From Pseudomonadota bacterium (GTDB lineage: Bacteria; Myxococcota_A; Polyangia; Polyangiales; JAFGIB01), in assembly GCA_017881185.1 (NCBI GenBank), contig JADGRE010000014.1:1-49555 (forward strand): a DNA stretch of 49,555 nucleotides, read 5' to 3'. Made by a program: the position numbers and the translations under genes. The notes beneath the pieces are model-generated. The model ran no database searches, was not told the DNA's origin, and was given only the letters and a program-made list of their open reading frames with translations. Of the stretch, positions 1,356 to 36,308 are shown one piece after another. Positions within the stretch are counted from its first letter, which is position 1. Every line of letters begins with the position of its first letter.

Positions 1356-1407
1356 CTATTCGCGGTGAAGTGCGTGGGAGAGTAGGACGCCGCCGGAATT
1401 AATAATG

Positions 1408-1439
1408 AAAGCCCCGCATGGCAACATGCGGGGCTTTTT
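1408..1439 (+). terminator. rRNA operon intrinsic terminator, copy 2
   Basis: Exact second copy of the stem, GCAA loop and T run, 84 bp downstream of copy 1, carried inside a duplicated segment that also includes the last 28 nt or so of the 5S gene. Together the copies form a tandem terminator. Confidence 0.92.
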
Positions 1440-1584
1440 CTATGTGTCTACAGTGGACACACGAGCGCGCGATCCGGGCGGAAACAGTCGCATTTTCTGG
1501 CTCCGGAGTGCTTCACTCTCTGCCAGAACCAGGGATACTTGGTGGCTTGAGGAGCCGCGCTTTCCCCTGCTTCGCCAGCGAGCA

Positions 1585-3963
1585 TTGAAGATTCGTCCTG
1601 CGATCATTCGCGGGGTAGTGGTCGGTGTCCTGATTGTCACGGCCGGCGGCGTTGCGTTCCTGTTGTGGCTGCCGAGCGGAGTGAGCGCGGGCTTGGCAGC
1701 GTTTGCCGAGCAGCGCGCCGGGCTGCAGCTGACGGTGGGCGCGGTTTCGGTTGGGCTCGGGGAGGTGGAGCTGCAGGATCTGCGGCTCGCAAGCCCGGCG
1801 GGACCCGGAGTCGAGATAGCAATCACCCGCACCCGGGTGCGGGCCGGCCTTTGGGGTGTATTGCTCCACGGCGTGCGCGGTGTGCAGAGCGTGGACGCCA
1901 GCCAGGTTCGTGCCGAGATCGACGTTTCGAGTGCGGCTTTCCAGGCTCTGCGCACGAAGCTGGCCGCAGGGGCGCCGAAAGCGCAACGGGCTGGCCCAGC
2001 CGGGCAGCTCGTGCTGCATGCTGGAGATATCAGCGTGCGGGTACGCGCGGGTCGACGATTGCTCGTGTCGGCCGATGGTGTGGATGCGCAGTCCGACGCG
2101 CAGGGCGCACGGGTCGAGGTCAAGCAGGCGCAGCTCGGTGACAAGGGCGTGGGCTCTGTGTCGGGCGTCTTGCACGGGCTTCACCTCTTGGCCGAGCGCG
2201 GCTCGCGCCTGCAGCTGCGTCGTTTCGTGGTCGATGACGCCGCGTTCGAGCTCGGGCCCAAGGCGGACGACGGATCGGACACCAAGGCCGTTGCTGCCAC
2301 GGGGTCGCCGCAGGTACCCGTTGCCGTGCCGGGGACACCGGCACCTGCGTCCAACGGTTCGTCGACAGCGCTGTCCTCGCTGATGGCTCGCCTGGCGCAG
2401 GGCGCACAGCTCGAGCTCAAGCACGTCGACGTGCAGACGCGCTCGCCGGCAGGTCTCTCTCCGCTCTTGCGCGCTGTTCACGTCGAGATCCGTCAGCGGG
2501 ACGAGCGACAGCTGCAACTGATGGTGCAGGGTGCGGCGCACGGCGGCGGAAAGATCGACGCAGATCTACGCGTTTGGCCCACGGAGCTGCGCGCCGACGG
2601 CAACGTTGCGTTGTCGAGCTTGCCGCTTGGTTTGATCGCGCCGCTCTTGCCTTCGGTGCCCTGGTACGAGCCGGAGCACAGCACGCTCGATGCCGAGCTC
2701 ACGATGCACACGGAGAGCGACAAACGCATCGCGCTCTCTGGACGCGCTGCGCTGCGGGATGCGGCGCTGTTCTCTCCCAAGCTTGCAGCCGACGTCGTTG
2801 GCGACATCAATTTCAGCCTGCAGGGCAGCGGCAGTTTCTTCCCATCGCAGCGGCGGCTCGAGATCGACGAGGGGCACCTCCAGCTCGGCAAGTCCAAGGT
2901 GGATCTCCACGGTGCAGTGGAGTTGGCTGCGGACCATTACACCTTCGACCTCAGCGCCGACTTGCCGCGTACCCCGTGTACGGATGCCGTGCGCTCCATA
3001 CCCAACGATCTACTCGGCGATCTCGCGCTCGCGCAGTGGACGGGCTGGCTCGCGGGGCACGTGGTGTTCCAGGCGGATTCGCGGCAGCTGGACAAGACGG
3101 TGCTCAAGCTGGACGTCACCGATCGTTGCGAGTTCACGTCGGTGCCCGCGATGGCCGATCTGCGGCGCTTTCAGCAGCCGTTCACGCAGAGCGTGGAAGA
3201 GCCCGATGGCACGATCTTCCAGATGGAGACTGGCCCCGGCACCGAGGCCTGGACGGGTATCGATGCGATCTCGCCGTTTCTGATCTACGCCGTGCTGGCG
3301 CACGAAGATCCGCAGTTCTTCAACCACCACGGTTTTTCGCCGGCCCACATTCGCGATGCGCTGGTGCGCAACCTGCGCGAGGGGCGTTACGTGCTGGGCG
3401 CGAGCACCATTACGATGCAGCTCGTGAAGAACGTGTTCCTCCGGCGCGAAAAGACGCTCGCGCGCAAGATTCAGGAAGTCTTGCTCACCTGGTGGATCGA
3501 GCGTGTGTTCCCGAAGCGCGATGGTCTCGAGCTGTACCTGAACGTCATCGAGTACGGGCCGAGCGTGTATGGCATTCGCAACGCTGCGAAGCACTACTTC
3601 AACCGCTTGCCATCGGAGCTTTCCCCGGCGGAGTCGGTGTTTCTCGCCACGATCTTGCCCAATCCCAAGCGGTACCACTCGTTCTTCGAGCGTGGAGCGT
3701 TGTCTGCGGGCTGGGTCGGCCAGATGCGCACGATGTTGCAGCGCTTGCGCGCGCGCGGTTTCTACACCAAAGAGGCGGCGGACTACGGGCTCGGCGAGCT
3801 CGAGCATTTCACGTTCACGCCAGAGGGTACGCCGGCCCCGCCGCGCGCCATTCCGGGCGGCACCGCGCCGCTGCCGTACGTCGTTGGTGCGCCCGCTCCC
3901 CACGCCGACGAGCACGACGACTCGATGGACAGCCGGGAGCCGGCGGCGGACGGCTACGATTGA
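1585..3963 (+). CDS. AsmA-like / GT51 biosynthetic peptidoglycan glycosyltransferase
   Basis: Predicted 792-residue, single-span inner-membrane protein with an AsmA-like periplasmic region (about 35-500) and a C-terminal GT51 glycosyltransferase (about 545-715), which would polymerise lipid II into glycan strands. GT51 motifs are all present: HEDPQFFNHHG with the catalytic Glu (about 572), GASTITMQL (about 604), RKIQEVLL (about 625) and ELYLNVIEYG (about 648). No transpeptidase domain follows, so it is not a class A PBP but is much longer than MtgA. The frame is open from 1405, inside the duplicated rRNA terminator, so I chose TTG 1585, which gives a Lys/Arg start and the membrane segment VVVGVLIVTAGGVAFLLWLP. 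The start is uncertain because no clear ribosome site is seen. The C-terminal tail is Pro-rich. Confidence 0.85.
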   Translation: MKIRPAIIRGVVVGVLIVTAGGVAFLLWLPSGVSAGLAAFAEQRAGLQLTVGAVSVGLGEVELQDLRLASPAGPGVEIAITRTRVRAGLWGVLLHGVRGVQSVDASQVRAEIDVSSAAFQALRTKLAAGAPKAQRAGPAGQLVLHAGDISVRVRAGRRLLVSADGVDAQSDAQGARVEVKQAQLGDKGVGSVSGVLHGLHLLAERGSRLQLRRFVVDDAAFELGPKADDGSDTKAVAATGSPQVPVAVPGTPAPASNGSSTALSSLMARLAQGAQLELKHVDVQTRSPAGLSPLLRAVHVEIRQRDERQLQLMVQGAAHGGGKIDADLRVWPTELRADGNVALSSLPLGLIAPLLPSVPWYEPEHSTLDAELTMHTESDKRIALSGRAALRDAALFSPKLAADVVGDINFSLQGSGSFFPSQRRLEIDEGHLQLGKSKVDLHGAVELAADHYTFDLSADLPRTPCTDAVRSIPNDLLGDLALAQWTGWLAGHVVFQADSRQLDKTVLKLDVTDRCEFTSVPAMADLRRFQQPFTQSVEEPDGTIFQMETGPGTEAWTGIDAISPFLIYAVLAHEDPQFFNHHGFSPAHIRDALVRNLREGRYVLGASTITMQLVKNVFLRREKTLARKIQEVLLTWWIERVFPKRDGLELYLNVIEYGPSVYGIRNAAKHYFNRLPSELSPAESVFLATILPNPKRYHSFFERGALSAGWVGQMRTMLQRLRARGFYTKEAADYGLGELEHFTFTPEGTPAPPRAIPGGTAPLPYVVGAPAPHADEHDDSMDSREPAADGYD

Positions 3964-5166: not shown

Positions 5167-7047
5167 TCAATCGATGCCCTTGCGGATGCGGTGTTGTTGC
5201 AGTGGGTCGTGCGCGCTGGTGTCGAGCGCACGGCTCACTTGCACACCCTGCAGCGCGACGAAGTGCTCGCCGCCATCGGTGGACTCGATGGCGAGTAGAT
5301 CGTTGCCTTCGCGCGCCGCGAGCACCACGCGCGCGCCGTCGTGCGCGAGCACGGGCACGCCGCAGAAGCCGCCGAACGGGTCCCAGCAAGTTGCTGGTGT
5401 CTGCGCCGGGGCTTGCACCTTGCCCTGCAGATCCGTGCGCAACACGCGGATCTCGCGGGCGCTGCCCGTGCCGCTCCACGCCACGAGCGTAGAGTTGCTC
5501 AACGTCAGCGCCGAGAAGCTCGCGACTTGCTCGCCGAGTTGCGTGCGCGCTGCGCAGTGGCCGTCGGCGCTGCAGGTCGTCATCCCGAGGGTGGCGTCCG
5601 CGCCCAGGGTCCAAAGCTGACTGCCGTGGCCGTCGCACGACAGGCGCACGCGATCGAGTGCCGCGTTTTCCGCGTGCAGCGGGGCGTCGACGGTCTGCGC
5701 TACGATGTCACTTGCAACGACGCCGCCATCAGCAGCAAGACGCGCGACGCGATAGCCGTCATGCGATCCGTACGCGACCCAGTGTACGTCGGCCGCCGTG
5801 CATGACAGCACCCAGGGCGCCTCGCCCGGGACCTGTGGCAGCGTGATGTCCGACGCGACCGGCGCCACGTGCACCACATGCGCGGTGACCTGGCCGTACA
5901 GTGCGCCTGCATAGACGACGCCAGGTGATTCGTTGTTCGTCAAGACAGCGCTGCAGCCCGCGCATGCCGCCGCCACCGGCCAGCTCTGCTCTGGCTGCAC
6001 GGGCGGAGCGTCCGCCACGGGCTTCACCGTCTTGTCCAAGCGGAAGCGCCGCAACTCGATGCCGCTGCCGTCTTGCGTGAGCGCGAGTAGATCCACCCGT
6101 CCGGCTGGGTCCACGCGCAGTGAACGATCGACGCGCTGTGCGGGGTGTCCCGCGAGCCACTGCGGCGTGGGCAGCTCCACGCCGCCCTTGTCGTAAGCGG
6201 CCAGACCGGTCGCGCGCCGGGCACAGTGGTCGTCGCGTTCGAGGCAACGCGCTTGCGGCGTGGCCCACACGAGGTATGGGTCGCTGCCGGCACGCACTAC
6301 CGCACGCACCAGGCTCGTGCGCTTGACGCGGTCGCGGTCGATCTTTCCGGCGTCCACGCGCAGCCACGAAGCGCCGCGTCCGTCGAGCGCTACGGCCTCA
6401 AGGGTGCTGGCTACCACCAGCAGATCGAGTGTGGAAGTCTCCGCCGCCATCAGCGGCAGGCGGGCAGGTGGGCTCAGCTTGGCCGGCTCCTTGAAGCGCA
6501 GTGCGTAGTCGTCGATGTCGGCCTCGGCGCCGGCCGCTTTCGCCATCAACGTGAGCGCCGCCTGCAGCTTGGCCAGCGCCAGCAGCGGTCGACTCGGCAC
6601 ACGCGCGCTGCCCATGCGCCGGGCGCGGTGCAGCATCGCGAGCTCGCCGTCGAGCAGCTTGACCACGGCGCGCACGTCGACCCCCGCCTCTTTCACCGCA
6701 GGCCACAGGAAGATGGCATCGGGCGCTGCGAGCTCGTGCAAGCGCTTGCGACAGCCGAGCGGCCACTGACTGGAAGCGAAGAGCACGTTGCTCGCGTAGT
6801 GATCGCGCTCCTGGTCGGGCAGCCCGAGGCCCGGCCTGCTGGGGATCTCTCCGCCGAGCAAGCATTGCGTGAAGCGTGCAAACGCCGGGCGCTCGGCACG
6901 CGCGATCTCGCGGCCGCGCCAGTACGGCACACCGAGCAGCAGGATGGCCATGGCCAAGTTGGCGCCCAGCGTGAACAGAATGGGCCGCAAGTTCGGCCGG
7001 AAGCTGTTGGCGACCTCTTGGGCCTCGAGCTCTGAGGGTTGCTTCAC
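5167..7047 (-). CDS. Hypothetical membrane-anchored protein
   Basis: A 626-residue protein starting at GTG 7047. A short cytoplasmic N-terminus (about 20 residues) is followed by one membrane span (LFTLGANLAMAILLLGVPYW), and the rest should be extracytoplasmic. The C-terminal two thirds look like repeated beta strands of a propeller type (WVLSCTAADVHWVAYGSHDG, RVRLSCDGHGSQLWTLGADA), with several Cys pairs such as CAGC and CSADGHC. I do not recognise a family and assign no function. It starts 3 bp after the stop of the shortened acyl-CoA dehydrogenase and is the last gene of the acs transcription unit. Confidence 0.75.
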   Translation of the reverse strand: MKQPSELEAQEVANSFRPNLRPILFTLGANLAMAILLLGVPYWRGREIARAERPAFARFTQCLLGGEIPSRPGLGLPDQERDHYASNVLFASSQWPLGCRKRLHELAAPDAIFLWPAVKEAGVDVRAVVKLLDGELAMLHRARRMGSARVPSRPLLALAKLQAALTLMAKAAGAEADIDDYALRFKEPAKLSPPARLPLMAAETSTLDLLVVASTLEAVALDGRGASWLRVDAGKIDRDRVKRTSLVRAVVRAGSDPYLVWATPQARCLERDDHCARRATGLAAYDKGGVELPTPQWLAGHPAQRVDRSLRVDPAGRVDLLALTQDGSGIELRRFRLDKTVKPVADAPPVQPEQSWPVAAACAGCSAVLTNNESPGVVYAGALYGQVTAHVVHVAPVASDITLPQVPGEAPWVLSCTAADVHWVAYGSHDGYRVARLAADGGVVASDIVAQTVDAPLHAENAALDRVRLSCDGHGSQLWTLGADATLGMTTCSADGHCAARTQLGEQVASFSALTLSNSTLVAWSGTGSAREIRVLRTDLQGKVQAPAQTPATCWDPFGGFCGVPVLAHDGARVVLAAREGNDLLAIESTDGGEHFVALQGVQVSRALDTSAHDPLQQHRIRKGID

Positions 7048-7050
7048 GCG

Positions 7051-7719
7051 TTACCCCTGTCGCAGCCCGAGCGCGTACTCGGCGATGAGTTTCTGGTGCA
7101 GCTCGCTCGTGCCTTCGCCTTGCGTGCGCTTGGGATCCACCAGGAATGCTGTAACGCCACGTTGCTGCAGTGCGCGGTCGAGGGTCGCCACGACGAAGAA
7201 CAGGCCCGCTTGGCTGGCGTGCGAGATGAACACCTTGCTGCCATCGAGCACATAGCCGCCGCTCACGCGCGTGGCAGTGGTCTGCATGCTCGCCAGATCG
7301 GTGCCTCCGCCAGGCTCGGTGAGACCGGCGGAAGCCAGGCATCTGCCGCTGGCGATCTTCGGTAGCCAGGTCTGCTTCTGTGCTTCGCTGCCGCGGCTCA
7401 GGATGGCGTGCGCCGCGAGCGAGTTGCTGACCGATATCACCGAGGCGAGCACCCAGTCGATGCGCGCGATCTCCTCGCACACGATCCCGTAGCTCGTGAC
7501 GTCCGAGAACGACCCGCCGTAGCGCGCTGGGATGAGCGGCCCGAGCAAGCCGAGCGGCACGAGCTTCTGCGCCAGCTCGCTCGGGTACTGCCCGGCGCGC
7601 TCGTAGCGCTCCACGTGCGGCAAGAGCTCGCTCTGTGCGAATGCACGCACGGCGCGCCGTACCTGCCGCTGCTCGGGCGTCAGGTCGAAGTCGTTCATGC
7701 GCTGCAAGAGCTCGCTCAT
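7051..7719 (-). pseudogene. Acyl-CoA dehydrogenase with internal deletion
   Basis: The frame encodes 222 residues, while acyl-CoA dehydrogenases are normally about 380. The N-terminal helical domain (1-120) and the start of the beta domain with the flavin-contact motif LASAGLTEPGGGTDLAS (about 127-143) are intact. The sequence then jumps from TAFLVDPKRTQG (about 196) straight to EGTSELHQKLIAEYALG, which matches the extreme C-terminus of the family, where the Glu of YEGT is the catalytic base in medium-chain enzymes. Roughly 150 residues, most of the C-terminal four-helix domain, are missing in frame. The product probably cannot form the normal FAD site or tetramer. ATG 7719 is 11 bp after acs. 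Labelled pseudogene on structure; it may still be translated. Confidence 0.72.
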
Positions 7720-7730
7720 CGCGCGCGCAG

Positions 7731-9683
<1,953 letters not shown>

Positions 9684-11687: not shown

Positions 11688-12269
11688 ATGTCGCGCATCT
11701 CCGAGCCCAGCCAGAAGCCCGTCGTCGACGACGACCGGGCGCTGTTGCGTCGGGCTTCCGAGGGCGACGAGCAGGCGGTGCGCCAGCTGTACCGGGCGCA
11801 TTCGGCCAAGCTCCACCGCCACGCCGCGCGCATCCTCGGCTCGAGCGACCCCGACGTCGAAGACGTGGTCCAACAGGCATTCATCGCGGCGCTCGACGGC
11901 GCCTCCAGATTCGACGGGCGCTCCAGCGTGCAAACGTGGCTGTTCGGCATCGTCACGCGTCGCGCGCTCGACGCGGCACGCTCGCGCTTCCGTCGGCAGC
12001 GCTTCTCGCGCTTGGCCGAGTGGGTGGGCGTCGGCGGCGAATCCACTGCGGCTGCCGATCGCTCGTTCCACGCGGGTGACGAAGCCGAACAGGTGTTGGC
12101 CGGGCTCTCGCCGATGCAGCGCGTGGTGTTCGTGCTGCACGATGTCGAAGGCTACACCTTCGCCGAGATCTCGGGCCTGACCGACGTGGGCATCTCCACC
12201 TTGCACGGCCGCTTGCTCGCGGCGCGCAAGCGCATCGACGAGCTGCTGGCTGGGGGCGAAGATGCGTAG
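11688..12269 (+). CDS. ECF-type RNA polymerase sigma factor
   Basis: A 193-residue sigma-70 family factor of the extracytoplasmic function type. Region 2 spans about 20-95 (LLRRASEGDEQAVRQLY, DVEDVVQQAFIAAL, SVQTWLFGIVTRRALD), followed by a linker and region 4 at about 130-188 (LSPMQRVVFVLHDVEGYTFAEISG, then the recognition helix around VGISTLHGRLLAARKRI). There is no region 1.1 or 3. ATG 11688 has GAGGATCAC upstream. Its last 8 bases overlap the start of the FecR-like gene, so the two are translationally coupled, as is usual for a sigma factor and its regulator. Confidence 0.93.
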   Translation: MSRISEPSQKPVVDDDRALLRRASEGDEQAVRQLYRAHSAKLHRHAARILGSSDPDVEDVVQQAFIAALDGASRFDGRSSVQTWLFGIVTRRALDAARSRFRRQRFSRLAEWVGVGGESTAAADRSFHAGDEAEQVLAGLSPMQRVVFVLHDVEGYTFAEISGLTDVGISTLHGRLLAARKRIDELLAGGEDA

Positions 12270-13608
12270 GGTCATCCCCGACGTCATCACGCCTTCGCAG
12301 CACTTGGCTGCGGCGCTCAAGGACCAGCCGGCCGAGCTGGACGACTTGGTGCGCGCACGCATGGAGAAGAATCTCTTGGACGCGTGGCGCGCGCGCGGTG
12401 CGCTTTCGGTCGCGCTTTCGTCGCGCCCGTCACAGAGCCCGTCGCAACGTCCATCAGGACGTGCACAACGTAGCGTTGGAAGGCGCGCGCCCTCGCGTAC
12501 GGCTTGGATCGCGTCGCTGGCCCTGTCGGCGGCCGCGGGTCTGTTGCTCGGCTTGTACGTGCTGCGATCGCACGACGCGCAGACGTCGACCGCGCTCTCG
12601 CCCAACTTGGTCGCACACTTCGAGGTGGTGATCGACGACGGCGCGGTGCAGAGCGGCTACCTCAGCGAAGGTCAGATGCTCGAGAGCGGCAAGCACGGCC
12701 ACATCGAAGTGGGCTTGGCGCAGAGCCGGGTCGACATCTCGCCCGACAGCCGGGTGCGCTTCGAGCGTTTGTCGCGCGAGGAGCTGCGCTTGTCGCTGCT
12801 GACCGGTCGCGTCGAGGTGGCGTTCCATCCGGAGCACAAGGGCAAGGAGCACATGTCGATCGAGACGCGTGCGGCCCGCGTGCTGGTGGTGGGTACGCGC
12901 TTCAACGTGGAGGCCGACAACTCGGGCAACACCCTGGTCAGCGTGACCGAGGGCGTGGTGCAGGTGGTGCCGCGCCGTGGCGGTGAGCCGCGTTTCCTGC
13001 ATCCGGGCGAGCAGCTGCGGGTGCCCGCCGAGGCGCAAGACGATCGCGCGCGCGCGCTGCGCGAAGCGATCGAGCGGCGGCTGGCGAACCCGAACGCTGC
13101 CACGGCCGAAGACGTTGCCGACAGCGCGGAGGGTGCCAGCGCTGCGGATGCCGTGGCTGAAACGGCGACGGTCGAGCACGAGCCCAAGCACGGTGCGGCC
13201 AGCGATGAGCTGGCGCCCGAGCAGCGCCTGGAATCCGCGCGCAAGCTGCTCTTGCAGGGCAAGCACGCGGCAGCGCGCGAGCGCCTGCTGAAGTTGGCCC
13301 ACAGCACGCTGCCCACCGGCGATCGCGTCGAAGCACTGATGCTCATGGCCGAGTCGTTCACGGCGCAGGGGCAGATCCCGCGCGCGACCGATGCGTATCG
13401 CGAGGCCGTGCGCATCGCGCCGCGTCATCCGGCCGGCCACAACGCGCTGTTCGCGCTGGCCCGTTTGCTCGAACGCTACACCGAAGATCGCAGCGCGGCC
13501 GGTGCGGCCTACCGCGAGTACTTGCAGAAGGCGCCGTCGGGCGCGCTGGCGCTGCAGGCGCGGCAGGCGATGTGCCGCCTCGGCGATGCCACCAGCTGCA
13601 CCGACTGA
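12262..13608 (+). CDS. FecR-domain anti-sigma-like membrane protein with TPRs
   Basis: A 448-residue protein. The N-terminal cytoplasmic part (1-78) is followed by one membrane span (TAWIASLALSAAAGLLLGLYVL, about 79-100), a periplasmic FecR domain (about 115-260; motifs SRVRFERLSREELRLSLLTGRVEVAF and ARVLVVGTRFNVE), an acidic Ala-rich linker and TPR-like repeats (about 320-440). In this family FecR-type proteins sense a periplasmic cue and control the adjacent ECF factor. It overlaps the sigma gene by 8 nt. The cytoplasmic part lacks an obvious zinc anti-sigma HxxxCxxC motif. The envelope signal is unknown. Confidence 0.88.
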   Translation: MRRVIPDVITPSQHLAAALKDQPAELDDLVRARMEKNLLDAWRARGALSVALSSRPSQSPSQRPSGRAQRSVGRRAPSRTAWIASLALSAAAGLLLGLYVLRSHDAQTSTALSPNLVAHFEVVIDDGAVQSGYLSEGQMLESGKHGHIEVGLAQSRVDISPDSRVRFERLSREELRLSLLTGRVEVAFHPEHKGKEHMSIETRAARVLVVGTRFNVEADNSGNTLVSVTEGVVQVVPRRGGEPRFLHPGEQLRVPAEAQDDRARALREAIERRLANPNAATAEDVADSAEGASAADAVAETATVEHEPKHGAASDELAPEQRLESARKLLLQGKHAAARERLLKLAHSTLPTGDRVEALMLMAESFTAQGQIPRATDAYREAVRIAPRHPAGHNALFALARLLERYTEDRSAAGAAYREYLQKAPSGALALQARQAMCRLGDATSCTD

Positions 13609-32744: not shown

Positions 32745-33936
32745 GCGGGCGCGCGGCTTCGGCGCTCTCCTCGGCTTGTAGCGTCTGCAGCTCGCGCAGC
32801 GCGGCTGCGAGGTCGGCTTGTGCCGCGGCGCGATACGGATCGCCCTCGGGTGCGGCAGCTGCAAACGCGCGGTAATTGGCCGCTGCAGCTTGCAGTGCGT
32901 CCAGGCGCAGCTCCGGCGCCGTGGTGAGGTGCGACAACGCTTCGTTGCCGAGCGCCTCGTAGTAGTGGCGCTCGTAGCTCGGTTCGAAGAACACGCCCTC
33001 CGAGTGCAAGGTGTCGAGGGTCTGCCGGTCGGCCTGCGCGGCCTTTTCGCACACTTTGAGCGCACTCTCGTGCTCGCCCAGCCGATCGAGCGCCACCGCC
33101 ATGCCGTACAGCGCTAGCGTGTACTCGCGACCCGCGTGCGAGAGCTCGAGCGCATGCTGGTACACCGCCAGCGCCGAGGCTGCGTCGCCACCGAGCATGG
33201 TGACCTCGGCGAGGTTCGCGTAGGTCACGGAGACCTCGCGCTCGTCCAGCGAGAGCTCGGCGGCGCGCGCGTAGGCCTGCGCAGCGCGCTCGAAGTCGTG
33301 CGAGCGCGTCAGCAGCACGCCGAGCTGGAAAGCCGTGTCGCTGGCTTGGAACGTCGGGTCGAGCGCCATCAACGTGCGCAGCTCGGCGATCGCCTCGCTG
33401 TCGCGTCGCCGGACGCTGCAACCATGGAGCGGCAACGGCTCTTCCCACAAACCGAGCACGCGTGCCCGCAGGTAGTGCAGCTGCGGATCGCCCGGAGCGA
33501 GCTGCAGTGCGAGCGTCAGACGTGCCAGGGCGTCGTCGAGCTCGGCCCGGCCCTCGAGCGACTGTCGCAAGAGCGCCTCGAGCGCCCGGCGGCGTGCGGT
33601 GGCAGCTGCATCGCCGCTTGCTGCGTCCGTGCCCGAGCGCGCGGGTTGCACAGGCTGCGCGCCCTGCACGCGCTCGCACAGCGTCTGCCACTCGCCTGGC
33701 AGCGTGCCAGTGGCGCTGCGCAACAGCCCGAGCGCCTGGCGCAGTAGCGCCCGTGCCCGCGCTTGCTCGGGGTGCCTTCCCAGCCGATACAGCCAGCTGC
33801 TCGCATGCGTCTGGCCCGCTGGCTGCTGCGCGTGGGCCGGCTGCGGGCAGCTGAGCAAGCTTGCCGCCACCAGCAGCAGACCGAAGCGATCGAGCCGCCG
33901 GAGCCAGCGAGACCAAGCAGGTGGGCGCCGCGCCAT
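32719..33936 (-). CDS. Exported TPR-repeat protein
   Basis: A 405-residue protein with an N-terminal signal (RFGLLLVAASLLSCPQPAHA); cleavage after AHA or lipidation at the Cys of LLSC are both possible. Helical tetratricopeptide-type repeats fill about 110-400, for example LTLALQLAPGDPQLHYLRAR, AYARAAELSLDEREVSVTYA and ALAVYQHALELSHAGREYTL. A basic RRRAAK tail ends it. TPR proteins act as protein-binding scaffolds; no partner is evident. Its 3' end overlaps the ketosynthase-like gene by 26 nt, tail to tail. Confidence 0.8.
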   Translation of the reverse strand: MARRPPAWSRWLRRLDRFGLLLVAASLLSCPQPAHAQQPAGQTHASSWLYRLGRHPEQARARALLRQALGLLRSATGTLPGEWQTLCERVQGAQPVQPARSGTDAASGDAAATARRRALEALLRQSLEGRAELDDALARLTLALQLAPGDPQLHYLRARVLGLWEEPLPLHGCSVRRRDSEAIAELRTLMALDPTFQASDTAFQLGVLLTRSHDFERAAQAYARAAELSLDEREVSVTYANLAEVTMLGGDAASALAVYQHALELSHAGREYTLALYGMAVALDRLGEHESALKVCEKAAQADRQTLDTLHSEGVFFEPSYERHYYEALGNEALSHLTTAPELRLDALQAAAANYRAFAAAAPEGDPYRAAAQADLAAALRELQTLQAEESAEAARPLKRRRAAK

Positions 33937-34075
33937 GTCGTGAATCTACCGCGTCTGCGTGCTCGGCGCCGCGCCCCGCCGCTGTGGGTCGACATCCGCG
34001 CTGGGATCACCCGTGCTCCTCGCCCCGCACATACGGTCGCTGCGGCTTCTCCCTTTTTCCTGGCTCCCCATGCGA

Positions 34076-34081
34076 TACAAT
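34076..34081 (+). promoter_or_regulatory. -10-like TACAAT before the HD-GYP gene
   Basis: TACAAT ends 10 nt before GTG 34092; no good -35 and no ribosome site are visible. It supports leaderless initiation at this GTG. Confidence 0.4.
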
Positions 34082-34091
34082 CCGAATCTCA

Positions 34092-36308
34092 GTGAACGCA
34101 TCACTCCATCCTCAAGAGGGGCCCACGCCGCGGATCAATCAGAAGCTCCTACGGGCGCTGATTTCGGAGGGGGCAGTTTCACAGAACGATATCGAGCAGG
34201 CCGAGCTCTACGCCAAGCGACGCCGCCTGCACGTGGAAGAGGCGCTGATCGAAACCGGCGCGCTCGACGAGACGCAGCTGCTGAAGTTCCTGGCGGCGAT
34301 GTACAAGACCTACTTCGTCTCGACGAAGAAGCTCTCGAGCGCACCGATCAGCGACTCGCTGCTCAAGCTGATCACACACAAGCTGGCGGTCAAGCTGTGC
34401 ATCTTTCCGGTGAAGTACGAGCCGCGTACGGGCGAGCTCTCCATTCTCACCGTGGAGCCCGACGATCCCGACATGCTCAAGAGCGTGCAGTTCGCCACGC
34501 GCGTGTCGAAGGTACGTGCGCTCGTCGCGCGGCCGGCTGCCATTCAAGCCGCCATTCGTTTGCACTTCCTGAACGAGGCGAGCGCCTTCGGTGCCGTGCG
34601 TTCCGGGTCGACCACCGTCGACAAAGCCACGGTCGACGGAGAACGCGAACGTGCTGCCGCGCGTCGCACCACGCAGACCTACGATCAGGACCTCGGCCAG
34701 CTGCCGCCCGAGCGCCCCGAGCCGCCGCCCGACGCGCGTCGGCGCACCTCCACGGCCGAGATCGCAGCAGGTCGTCCGGGTGGCCATGTCGCACCACCGC
34801 CACCGCCACCCCCGCCGCAGCTGCCGCCGCCTGTACCCATGAACATGCAGTCGCCGCTGAGTTATTCGGCGACCATGCCGCTGCAACACGCACCGAACCT
34901 GGCCACGGCCGCCACCATGATGTCGCCGCTGCCGATGCCAGGTGCACAGGCTTACGCGGCGCAGCCTGACCCGCGCTTGGCGGTGGTGCAGGCGCCTTCG
35001 TTGCCCGAGCCGATTGTCTCGTCGGTGGCGATGCACGACTTCCTCGAGACCGTGAACGTGTTGGTGGCGCTGCTCGAACAGGAGCGGGGCGATCTGCGCG
35101 GCCATTCCATGACCGTGGCGCGCGTGACTCGGCGCATGTGCGAACGGCTCGGGCTCAAGCCCGAGGAAGCCGACTCGATCGTGGTTGCAGCTTACTTGCA
35201 CGACATCGGTAAGTCGTCCGCGCATCACCTCACCGCGCTGAACGTGGCCCAGTACGACGCCCACCGCCAGCAGGCCAAGAAGAGCTACCTCACGCCGGTG
35301 CGTATCTTCGAGTCCGTGCGTCTGCCCGACAAGGTCATCCCGATCCTCACGCATCTGTACGAGCGCTGCGACGGGCAGGGCTTTCCCGATCGCTTGTCGG
35401 GCAAAGAGATTCCGCTCGGCGCGCGCATCCTGTCCATCGTGGAGACCTACGTCGATCTCACCGCGCACGCGGGCAACGCGTTCCGCAAGAAGCTGAGCTC
35501 GCAAGAAGCCTGGGATGTCATCGTCAACTACAAGGGCAAGCTCTTCGACGCCAACCTGGTCGACGTGCTCAAGCTCGTGGTGCTGGGTGACGACCTGCGC
35601 GCCAAGCTGTTGGCCGACCGCCGGCGCGCGCTAATCATCGACGCCGACGCCGAGGAGACCACGGTGCTCGAGCTGCGTCTGGCCGAGCACGGCTACGAAG
35701 TCACCATCGCCCGCAACTCGCACGACGCAGAGAACGAGCTCAGCGGCGAGTTCGACGTGGTCATCAGCGAGGTCGATCTCAAGCCGAACGACGGCTTCAC
35801 GCTGCTGCAGCAGGTGCGCGCGGCCGGCAACCAGGTGCCGTTCGTGTTCCTGAGCAGCAACGACGACAGCGAGACCGTGCAACGCGGCTTCGAGCTCGGC
35901 GCCGACGAGTTCATCACCAAGCCCGCTTCGCCCGACCTGGTCGCGCTCAAGGTCAACCGTGTGCTCGACGGCGCGGGCCGCAAGCGCAAGACCGGTGGCG
36001 TGAGTGGCTCGCTCACCGAGATGGCATTGCCGGACGTGGTGCAGATCCTCTATCACGGTCGCAAGAGCGGCAAGCTCGGCATCTCGGCGGACAACAAACG
36101 CGGCGAGATTCATTTCTCCGAAGGGCAGATCTTCGACGCGAGCTTCGGTGAGCTGCAACGCGAAGACGCGTTCTACGCGATGCTCAACCTGACTCGTGGC
36201 GACTTCGAGCTCGATCCGAACTTTCGACCCACCGAGCGCAAGATCGAAATGAGCCCCGAGAGCTTGCTGCTCGAAGGCATGCGCCGTCAGGACGAAACAG
36301 GTCGCTGA
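34092..36308 (+). CDS. MshEN / HD-GYP / pseudo-receiver / DUF4388 signalling protein
   Basis: A 738-residue cytoplasmic regulator. Order: MshEN/GspE N-terminal domain (about 12-155), in other proteins a cyclic-di-GMP binder; Pro-rich linker with a run of nine Pro (about 190-310); HD-GYP phosphodiesterase-type domain (about 318-505) with YLHDIGKS (HD about 370) and a diverged GYP motif DGQGFPDRL; receiver-like domain (about 512-632); DUF4388/PATAN domain (about 637-730, DVVQILYHGRKSGKLGIS, GEIHFSEGQIFDASFGE). In the receiver the phospho-acceptor position reads ISEVDL, Glu 560 instead of Asp; the Ser and Lys (FLSSND, FITKP) are kept. It may therefore be constitutively in one state. Input and output domains suggest cyclic-di-GMP control of motility or type IV pili, but no target is adjacent. 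Confidence 0.88.
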   Translation: MNASLHPQEGPTPRINQKLLRALISEGAVSQNDIEQAELYAKRRRLHVEEALIETGALDETQLLKFLAAMYKTYFVSTKKLSSAPISDSLLKLITHKLAVKLCIFPVKYEPRTGELSILTVEPDDPDMLKSVQFATRVSKVRALVARPAAIQAAIRLHFLNEASAFGAVRSGSTTVDKATVDGERERAAARRTTQTYDQDLGQLPPERPEPPPDARRRTSTAEIAAGRPGGHVAPPPPPPPPQLPPPVPMNMQSPLSYSATMPLQHAPNLATAATMMSPLPMPGAQAYAAQPDPRLAVVQAPSLPEPIVSSVAMHDFLETVNVLVALLEQERGDLRGHSMTVARVTRRMCERLGLKPEEADSIVVAAYLHDIGKSSAHHLTALNVAQYDAHRQQAKKSYLTPVRIFESVRLPDKVIPILTHLYERCDGQGFPDRLSGKEIPLGARILSIVETYVDLTAHAGNAFRKKLSSQEAWDVIVNYKGKLFDANLVDVLKLVVLGDDLRAKLLADRRRALIIDADAEETTVLELRLAEHGYEVTIARNSHDAENELSGEFDVVISEVDLKPNDGFTLLQQVRAAGNQVPFVFLSSNDDSETVQRGFELGADEFITKPASPDLVALKVNRVLDGAGRKRKTGGVSGSLTEMALPDVVQILYHGRKSGKLGISADNKRGEIHFSEGQIFDASFGELQREDAFYAMLNLTRGDFELDPNFRPTERKIEMSPESLLLEGMRRQDETGR

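Follow-up and report, generated by a model that had tools for sequence, protein, structure and literature searches.

The window, i.e., the whole stretch of 49,555 nucleotides that was analyzed, is contig C324 of the draft genome (410 contigs with a total of 5,986,425 bases, completeness 94%) of a bacterium that belongs to the phylum of the myxobacteria. It contains an open reading frame (ORF) with similarity to acyl-CoA dehydrogenases (ACADs), which is located between acs, the gene for acetate--CoA ligase, and a downstream gene for a protein of 626 aa. The coordinates are summarized in Table 1. The sequence-only reading had named acs as the neighbor of the ACAD gene, and the NCBIfam model TIGR02188 confirmed this assignment. 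Searches of Pfam, NCBIfam and PADLOC gave no match for the 626-aa gene, and homologues with 37-53% identity directly follow acs, or acs and the ACAD gene, in the related genomes G001, G002, G003, G004 and G006. This gene is fast-evolving and tied to acetate activation in the host's family, and by eye its product has a hydrophobic N-terminal stretch.

Table 1. Features of the acs-linked ACAD locus (positions in the window).
Feature	Position	Strand	Remarks
Internally deleted ACAD ORF	7051..7719	-	222 aa + stop; intact relative 392 aa
Retained 5' part (residues 1-201), with N-terminal helical domain and first part of beta domain	7117..7719	-	
Retained 3' part: final 21 residues EGTSELHQKLIAEYALGLRQG, motif Glu included	7054..7116	-	
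Deletion join GGC/GAA	7114..7119	-	510 bp of orthologues missing here
acs, acetate--CoA ligase, upstream neighbor	7731..9683	-	start codon at about 9683; TIGR02188, 992 bits vs cut-off 725
626-aa downstream gene	5167..7047	-	GTG start 3 bp past ACAD stop

The ORF listing revealed neither a stop codon nor a frameshift within the ACAD remnant. The ATG at 7719 is the counterpart of the GTG or ATG start codon of the relatives, and an inner ATG is present at 7698. The protein passes from ...FLVDPKRTQG directly into EGTSELHQKLIAEYALGLRQG, which is followed by the stop codon. It could be aligned to the 392-aa ACAD of a relative, and the proposed in-frame ACAD with a missing middle was therefore verified. 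In the Pfam search the N-terminal helical domain PF02771 was found whole (residues 14-125, 120 bits, profile positions 1-112 of 113) and the middle domain PF02770 only partially (62 bits). The beta domain is thus incomplete, and the residues after 201 are missing by alignment. The C-terminal helical domain PF00441 had no match in the remnant in the profile search, and the same profile matched 32 other places in the source genome. The intact relative contains all three domains, with PF00441 at 144 bits. As noticed before, the glutamate of the EGTSE motif, which we take to be the catalytic base on the grounds of the MCAD and SCAD literature, is retained. It is residue 202 of the remnant (EGTSELH), but it is placed outside its normal structural setting.

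Alignment to the full-length orthologues showed that exactly 170 residues, i.e., 510 bp, are missing in frame, and not about 150 residues as first estimated. These are residues 195-364 in the 385-aa numbering, or residues 202-371 in the 392-aa numbering that begins at the upstream start codon. The join had been expected within 7120-7145, but the break is at 7117/7116, just outside of this interval, and its exact point is ambiguous by the shared GGC codon. In the orthologue of G006, GGC is present at both deletion ends, the window has GGC at the join, and each of the three orthologues that were compared has a conserved glycine codon at either end. The conserved glycine codons and the GGC at the join point to a deletion that took place between two identical words of very short length. 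The missing part comprises the last two strands of the beta domain (202-207 and 217-228 in the intact model) and four C-terminal helices (239-275, 287-315, 322-352 and 357-371). The lost segment is thus not confined to the helical domain, as the sequence-only reading had assumed. A chance similarity is not an issue, since the sequences on the two sides of the join have their matches in a single gene at a single conserved locus. An in-frame outcome is expected by chance in about one of three cases, and thus the preserved frame argues little either way.

Several other origins of the join were considered and rejected. A fusion of two different paralogues does not fit, because one and the same orthologue is matched by the two ends, and its locus has the same flanking genes. 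A relocation of the missing segment within the genome was also discarded: the 170 residues are present on no other contig of this 94%-complete genome, the best matches being paralogues with 43% identity. The junction DNA occurs once in the genome. Imperfect repeats of 33, 23, 17 and 15 nt were found in the region 6900-7900, but they are not at the join.

The same locus was compared in close relatives, i.e., in two species of the window's genus (G001, G002), one species of genus g2 (G003) and two genomes of the sister genus g3 of the same family (G004, G006). In G004 and G006 a full-length ACAD gene is located between acs and the homologue of the 626-aa gene, and both flanks are syntenic with the window. 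The remnant has 65-68% identical residues in the alignment with these two orthologues, and all residues of the EGTSE motif are kept. In G001, G002 and G003 acs is directly followed by the homologue of the 626-aa gene, with gaps of 64, 10 and 18 bp, respectively, and no ACAD gene in between. A close orthologue of the ACAD was not found elsewhere in these three genomes either (best match about 42% or less, none at 1e-80). Thus, at one locus within one family the gene is present in full, internally deleted or absent. The comparison with the acs neighborhood in relatives, which had been proposed as a check, therefore yielded a full-length gene in the sister genus and an ACAD-less locus in species of the same genus. 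The ACAD gene is dispensable here, as it has been lost altogether in two congeneric species. The host's family is sampled by 7 genomes only, so that it is uncertain in which order gains and losses took place.

Among the 183 genomes of the order, the gene was present only in G004, G006 and the window, the next best matches were about 42-43% identical, and the short form did not recur among close orthologues. At the phylum level 68 of 377 genomes contained the gene at E <= 1e-95. Because the window protein scored 7.4e-89 against the query of that search, this threshold would have hidden short forms, and the 377 genomes were searched again, now with the window protein and a threshold of 1e-60. 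This search returned 70 matches in 68 other genomes, none of which extended past residue 203 of the 215 residues of the query. The matched frames were at least 394 aa long, with the exception of G323:C114 (361 aa) and G334:C447 (276 aa). These two were rejected as short relatives because both are cut by contig ends, and thus none of the 70 matches is a short form, which is accordingly known only from the genome of the window. The best matches with a name in a GTDB-based collection were the MAG of G006 and "Deltaproteobacteria bacterium OFTM159" (JAJDAP010000019.1). The latter has a full-length gene, without acs in the 6.6 kb covered. At 12 phylum loci, inspected up to about 1.5 kb on each side, no close acs adjoined the gene, and two of the 12 had only distant AMP-ligase-like matches (about 24%). 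The titles and abstract openings of the papers retrieved contained nothing on this locus.

In a tree of 16 sequences the window ACAD was the sister of G004 and G006, with a support of 87 for all columns and of 92 for the retained columns. This is as expected for vertical descent, and a horizontally acquired odd copy was rejected on the basis of the same grouping. The retained part was then compared with the other 15 sequences. In the N-terminal part, three of the 87 columns that are invariant in the others are changed in the window (E29Q, I80V and C132G, alignment numbering), and in the C-terminal part none of 13; the same counts for the other 15 sequences are 0-3 and 0-1, respectively. The window branch was 2.0 times as long as the mean of the G004 and G006 branches in the ACAD (bootstrap 1.3-3.1), versus 2.3 times in acs (1.7-3.0).

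Because the NG86 synonymous distances were near saturation, a branch codon model was written, and it was applied to nine of the 16 alignment sequences, chosen for speed. Omega was 0.05 on the window branch versus 0.042 on the rest of the tree, a difference of 0.06 lnL units. Setting omega to 1 on the window ACAD branch was worse by 11 lnL units, and leaving the final 5% or more of this branch neutral cost over 2 lnL units. Fitted branch lengths were very large, with the window branch at about 7 in neutral units, and synonymous sites are saturated, so that these omegas are qualitative and weak on timing. For acs the window branch was somewhat faster than its background, with an omega of 0.058 versus 0.022, and thus the ACAD does not stand out in this respect. 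Relaxed selection on the remnant was not seen by omega, by the invariant columns or by the branch ratio, and the deletion is thus either recent or the remnant is still under selection. Qualitatively, the aligned sequences indicate that the retained part has been under ordinary constraint for nearly all of its history.

The effect of the deletion on the protein was analyzed by AlphaFold, with the same 15 sequences for both proteins. For the intact G004 protein the mean pLDDT was 86.6, and the beta domain was mostly at 70-95. For the window protein the mean was 63.9; residues about 11-130 were at 75-93, and residues 131-222 at 33-47 (blocks of ten). The N-terminal helical domain of the remnant is thus predicted with confidence, and no fold is predicted for its beta domain, although truncated chains often get low AlphaFold confidence, whatever the biology. 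Ordinary acyl-CoA dehydrogenases were the PDB matches to the window model, among the matches listed. In the ACAD family, FAD and the substrate are bound between the beta domain and the C-terminal domain, and the latter forms the core of the tetramer. The remnant has lost almost the entire C-terminal helical domain, together with a part of the beta domain that binds FAD and the substrate, and therefore no active dehydrogenase is expected. The remnant is probably not a working enzyme, a conclusion that can be drawn with good confidence from the domain content. In comparison with the full-length acs-linked orthologues of G004 and G006, which have PF02771, PF02770 and PF00441 and occupy the same locus, it lacks 170 residues, namely the end of the middle domain and almost the whole of PF00441. 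Among the named models, glutaryl-CoA dehydrogenase Acd (NF045552) and acryloyl-CoA reductase (NF042972) were the best for the intact relative as well as for the remnant, but the intact relative is far below the curated cut-offs (271 versus 470 and 291 versus 640, respectively). Annotation pipelines may call the remnant an acyl-CoA dehydrogenase, and the locus is a warning that an ORF can bear this name though most of the catalytic half is gone.

Taken together, the locus is probably explained by the recent inactivation of a dispensable, acs-linked ACAD gene through an internal deletion that kept the frame, as one step of gene loss. The ancestor of the genus and the sister genus would have had a normal ACAD gene between acs and the downstream gene. 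A single internal deletion of 510 bp, for which slippage or end joining at the short shared GGC is the probable mechanism, would then have removed the middle of the gene in the lineage of the window. As the frame was kept, ribosomes could still read to the old stop, three bases before the next gene. The sequence-only reading had offered a recent pseudogene within the acs operon as one option. Of its three options this one fits best, given the orthologues at the same place in the sister genus, the absence of the gene within the same genus and a remnant in which marks of decay have not accumulated. The open frame and the constrained retained part would also be expected of a useful remnant. Pseudogenes formed by internal deletion are a general kind in bacteria, and there, too, a single deletion at a very short shared sequence and a patchy loss in relatives are found. 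In contrast to them, the frame is preserved in this case, and no further disabling change has occurred. The gene looks like one that has been caught part-way through loss and is ordinary in kind. The full gene, the in-frame deleted gene and its clean absence among close relatives make steps of gene loss visible.

An artefact of the assembly or the strain, i.e., a false join or a minority deletion allele in a population that has the intact gene, is rather unlikely. The genome is a draft in 410 contigs and full-length relatives exist, which would fit an artefact. However, only about 3 bp are shared at the join, far below the word lengths of assemblers, and a false join over such an overlap would be unusual. 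In addition, both sides stem from the same syntenic locus, and the single-copy junction and the lack of the missing piece on any other contig also argue against it. The recent deletion has also a variant, which does not exclude it: the short form could be old and ancestral to the genus, so that G001 and G002 deleted the remnant and not the intact gene. This variant is unlikely. The trees of acs and of the downstream gene group the window with G002 and leave G001 outside, though weakly (support 70 and 56); with G001 outside, separate losses in G001 and G002 are needed anyway. An old remnant should have drifted neutrally, but no neutral drift was seen, and more than about 5% of neutral branch carries the likelihood cost given above.

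That the remnant is a functional small protein, or an in-frame spacer that couples translation of the downstream gene to acs, is very unlikely. The open frame without a sign of decay, the confident prediction for the helical N-terminal domain and a downstream GTG start only 3 bp behind the stop codon would all suit a function. However, no second short form was present in the 377 phylum genomes or, as a close orthologue, in the 183 order genomes. Sister species do without the gene, with the downstream gene 10-64 bp after acs, and no fold is predicted for the remainder of the chain. Retention by selection, with a new role for a folded N-terminal ACAD domain or as a translated coupling spacer, is accordingly regarded as most improbable. 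The "new small protein" of the sequence-only reading thus found no support, and orthologues of the same short length, which it had named as evidence against a pseudogene, were absent from the 377 genomes.

Further genes were noted in the window. A gene for an 852-aa protein with a transglycosylase domain (PF00912) is located at 1405-3963 (+), and, by reading, similar long proteins are encoded near the acs locus also in G002, G004 and G006. At 11688-13608 (+) a gene for an ECF sigma factor is followed by a gene for a FecR-domain protein, with an overlap of 8 bp. One protein with MshEN, HD_5, response-regulator and DUF4388 domains is encoded at 33861-36308 (+). Elsewhere in the same genome, at G000:C257:5846-6244 (-), the PF00441 search revealed another ACAD copy with one in-frame TGA, which might be another decaying paralogue or a match that overruns the end of the gene.
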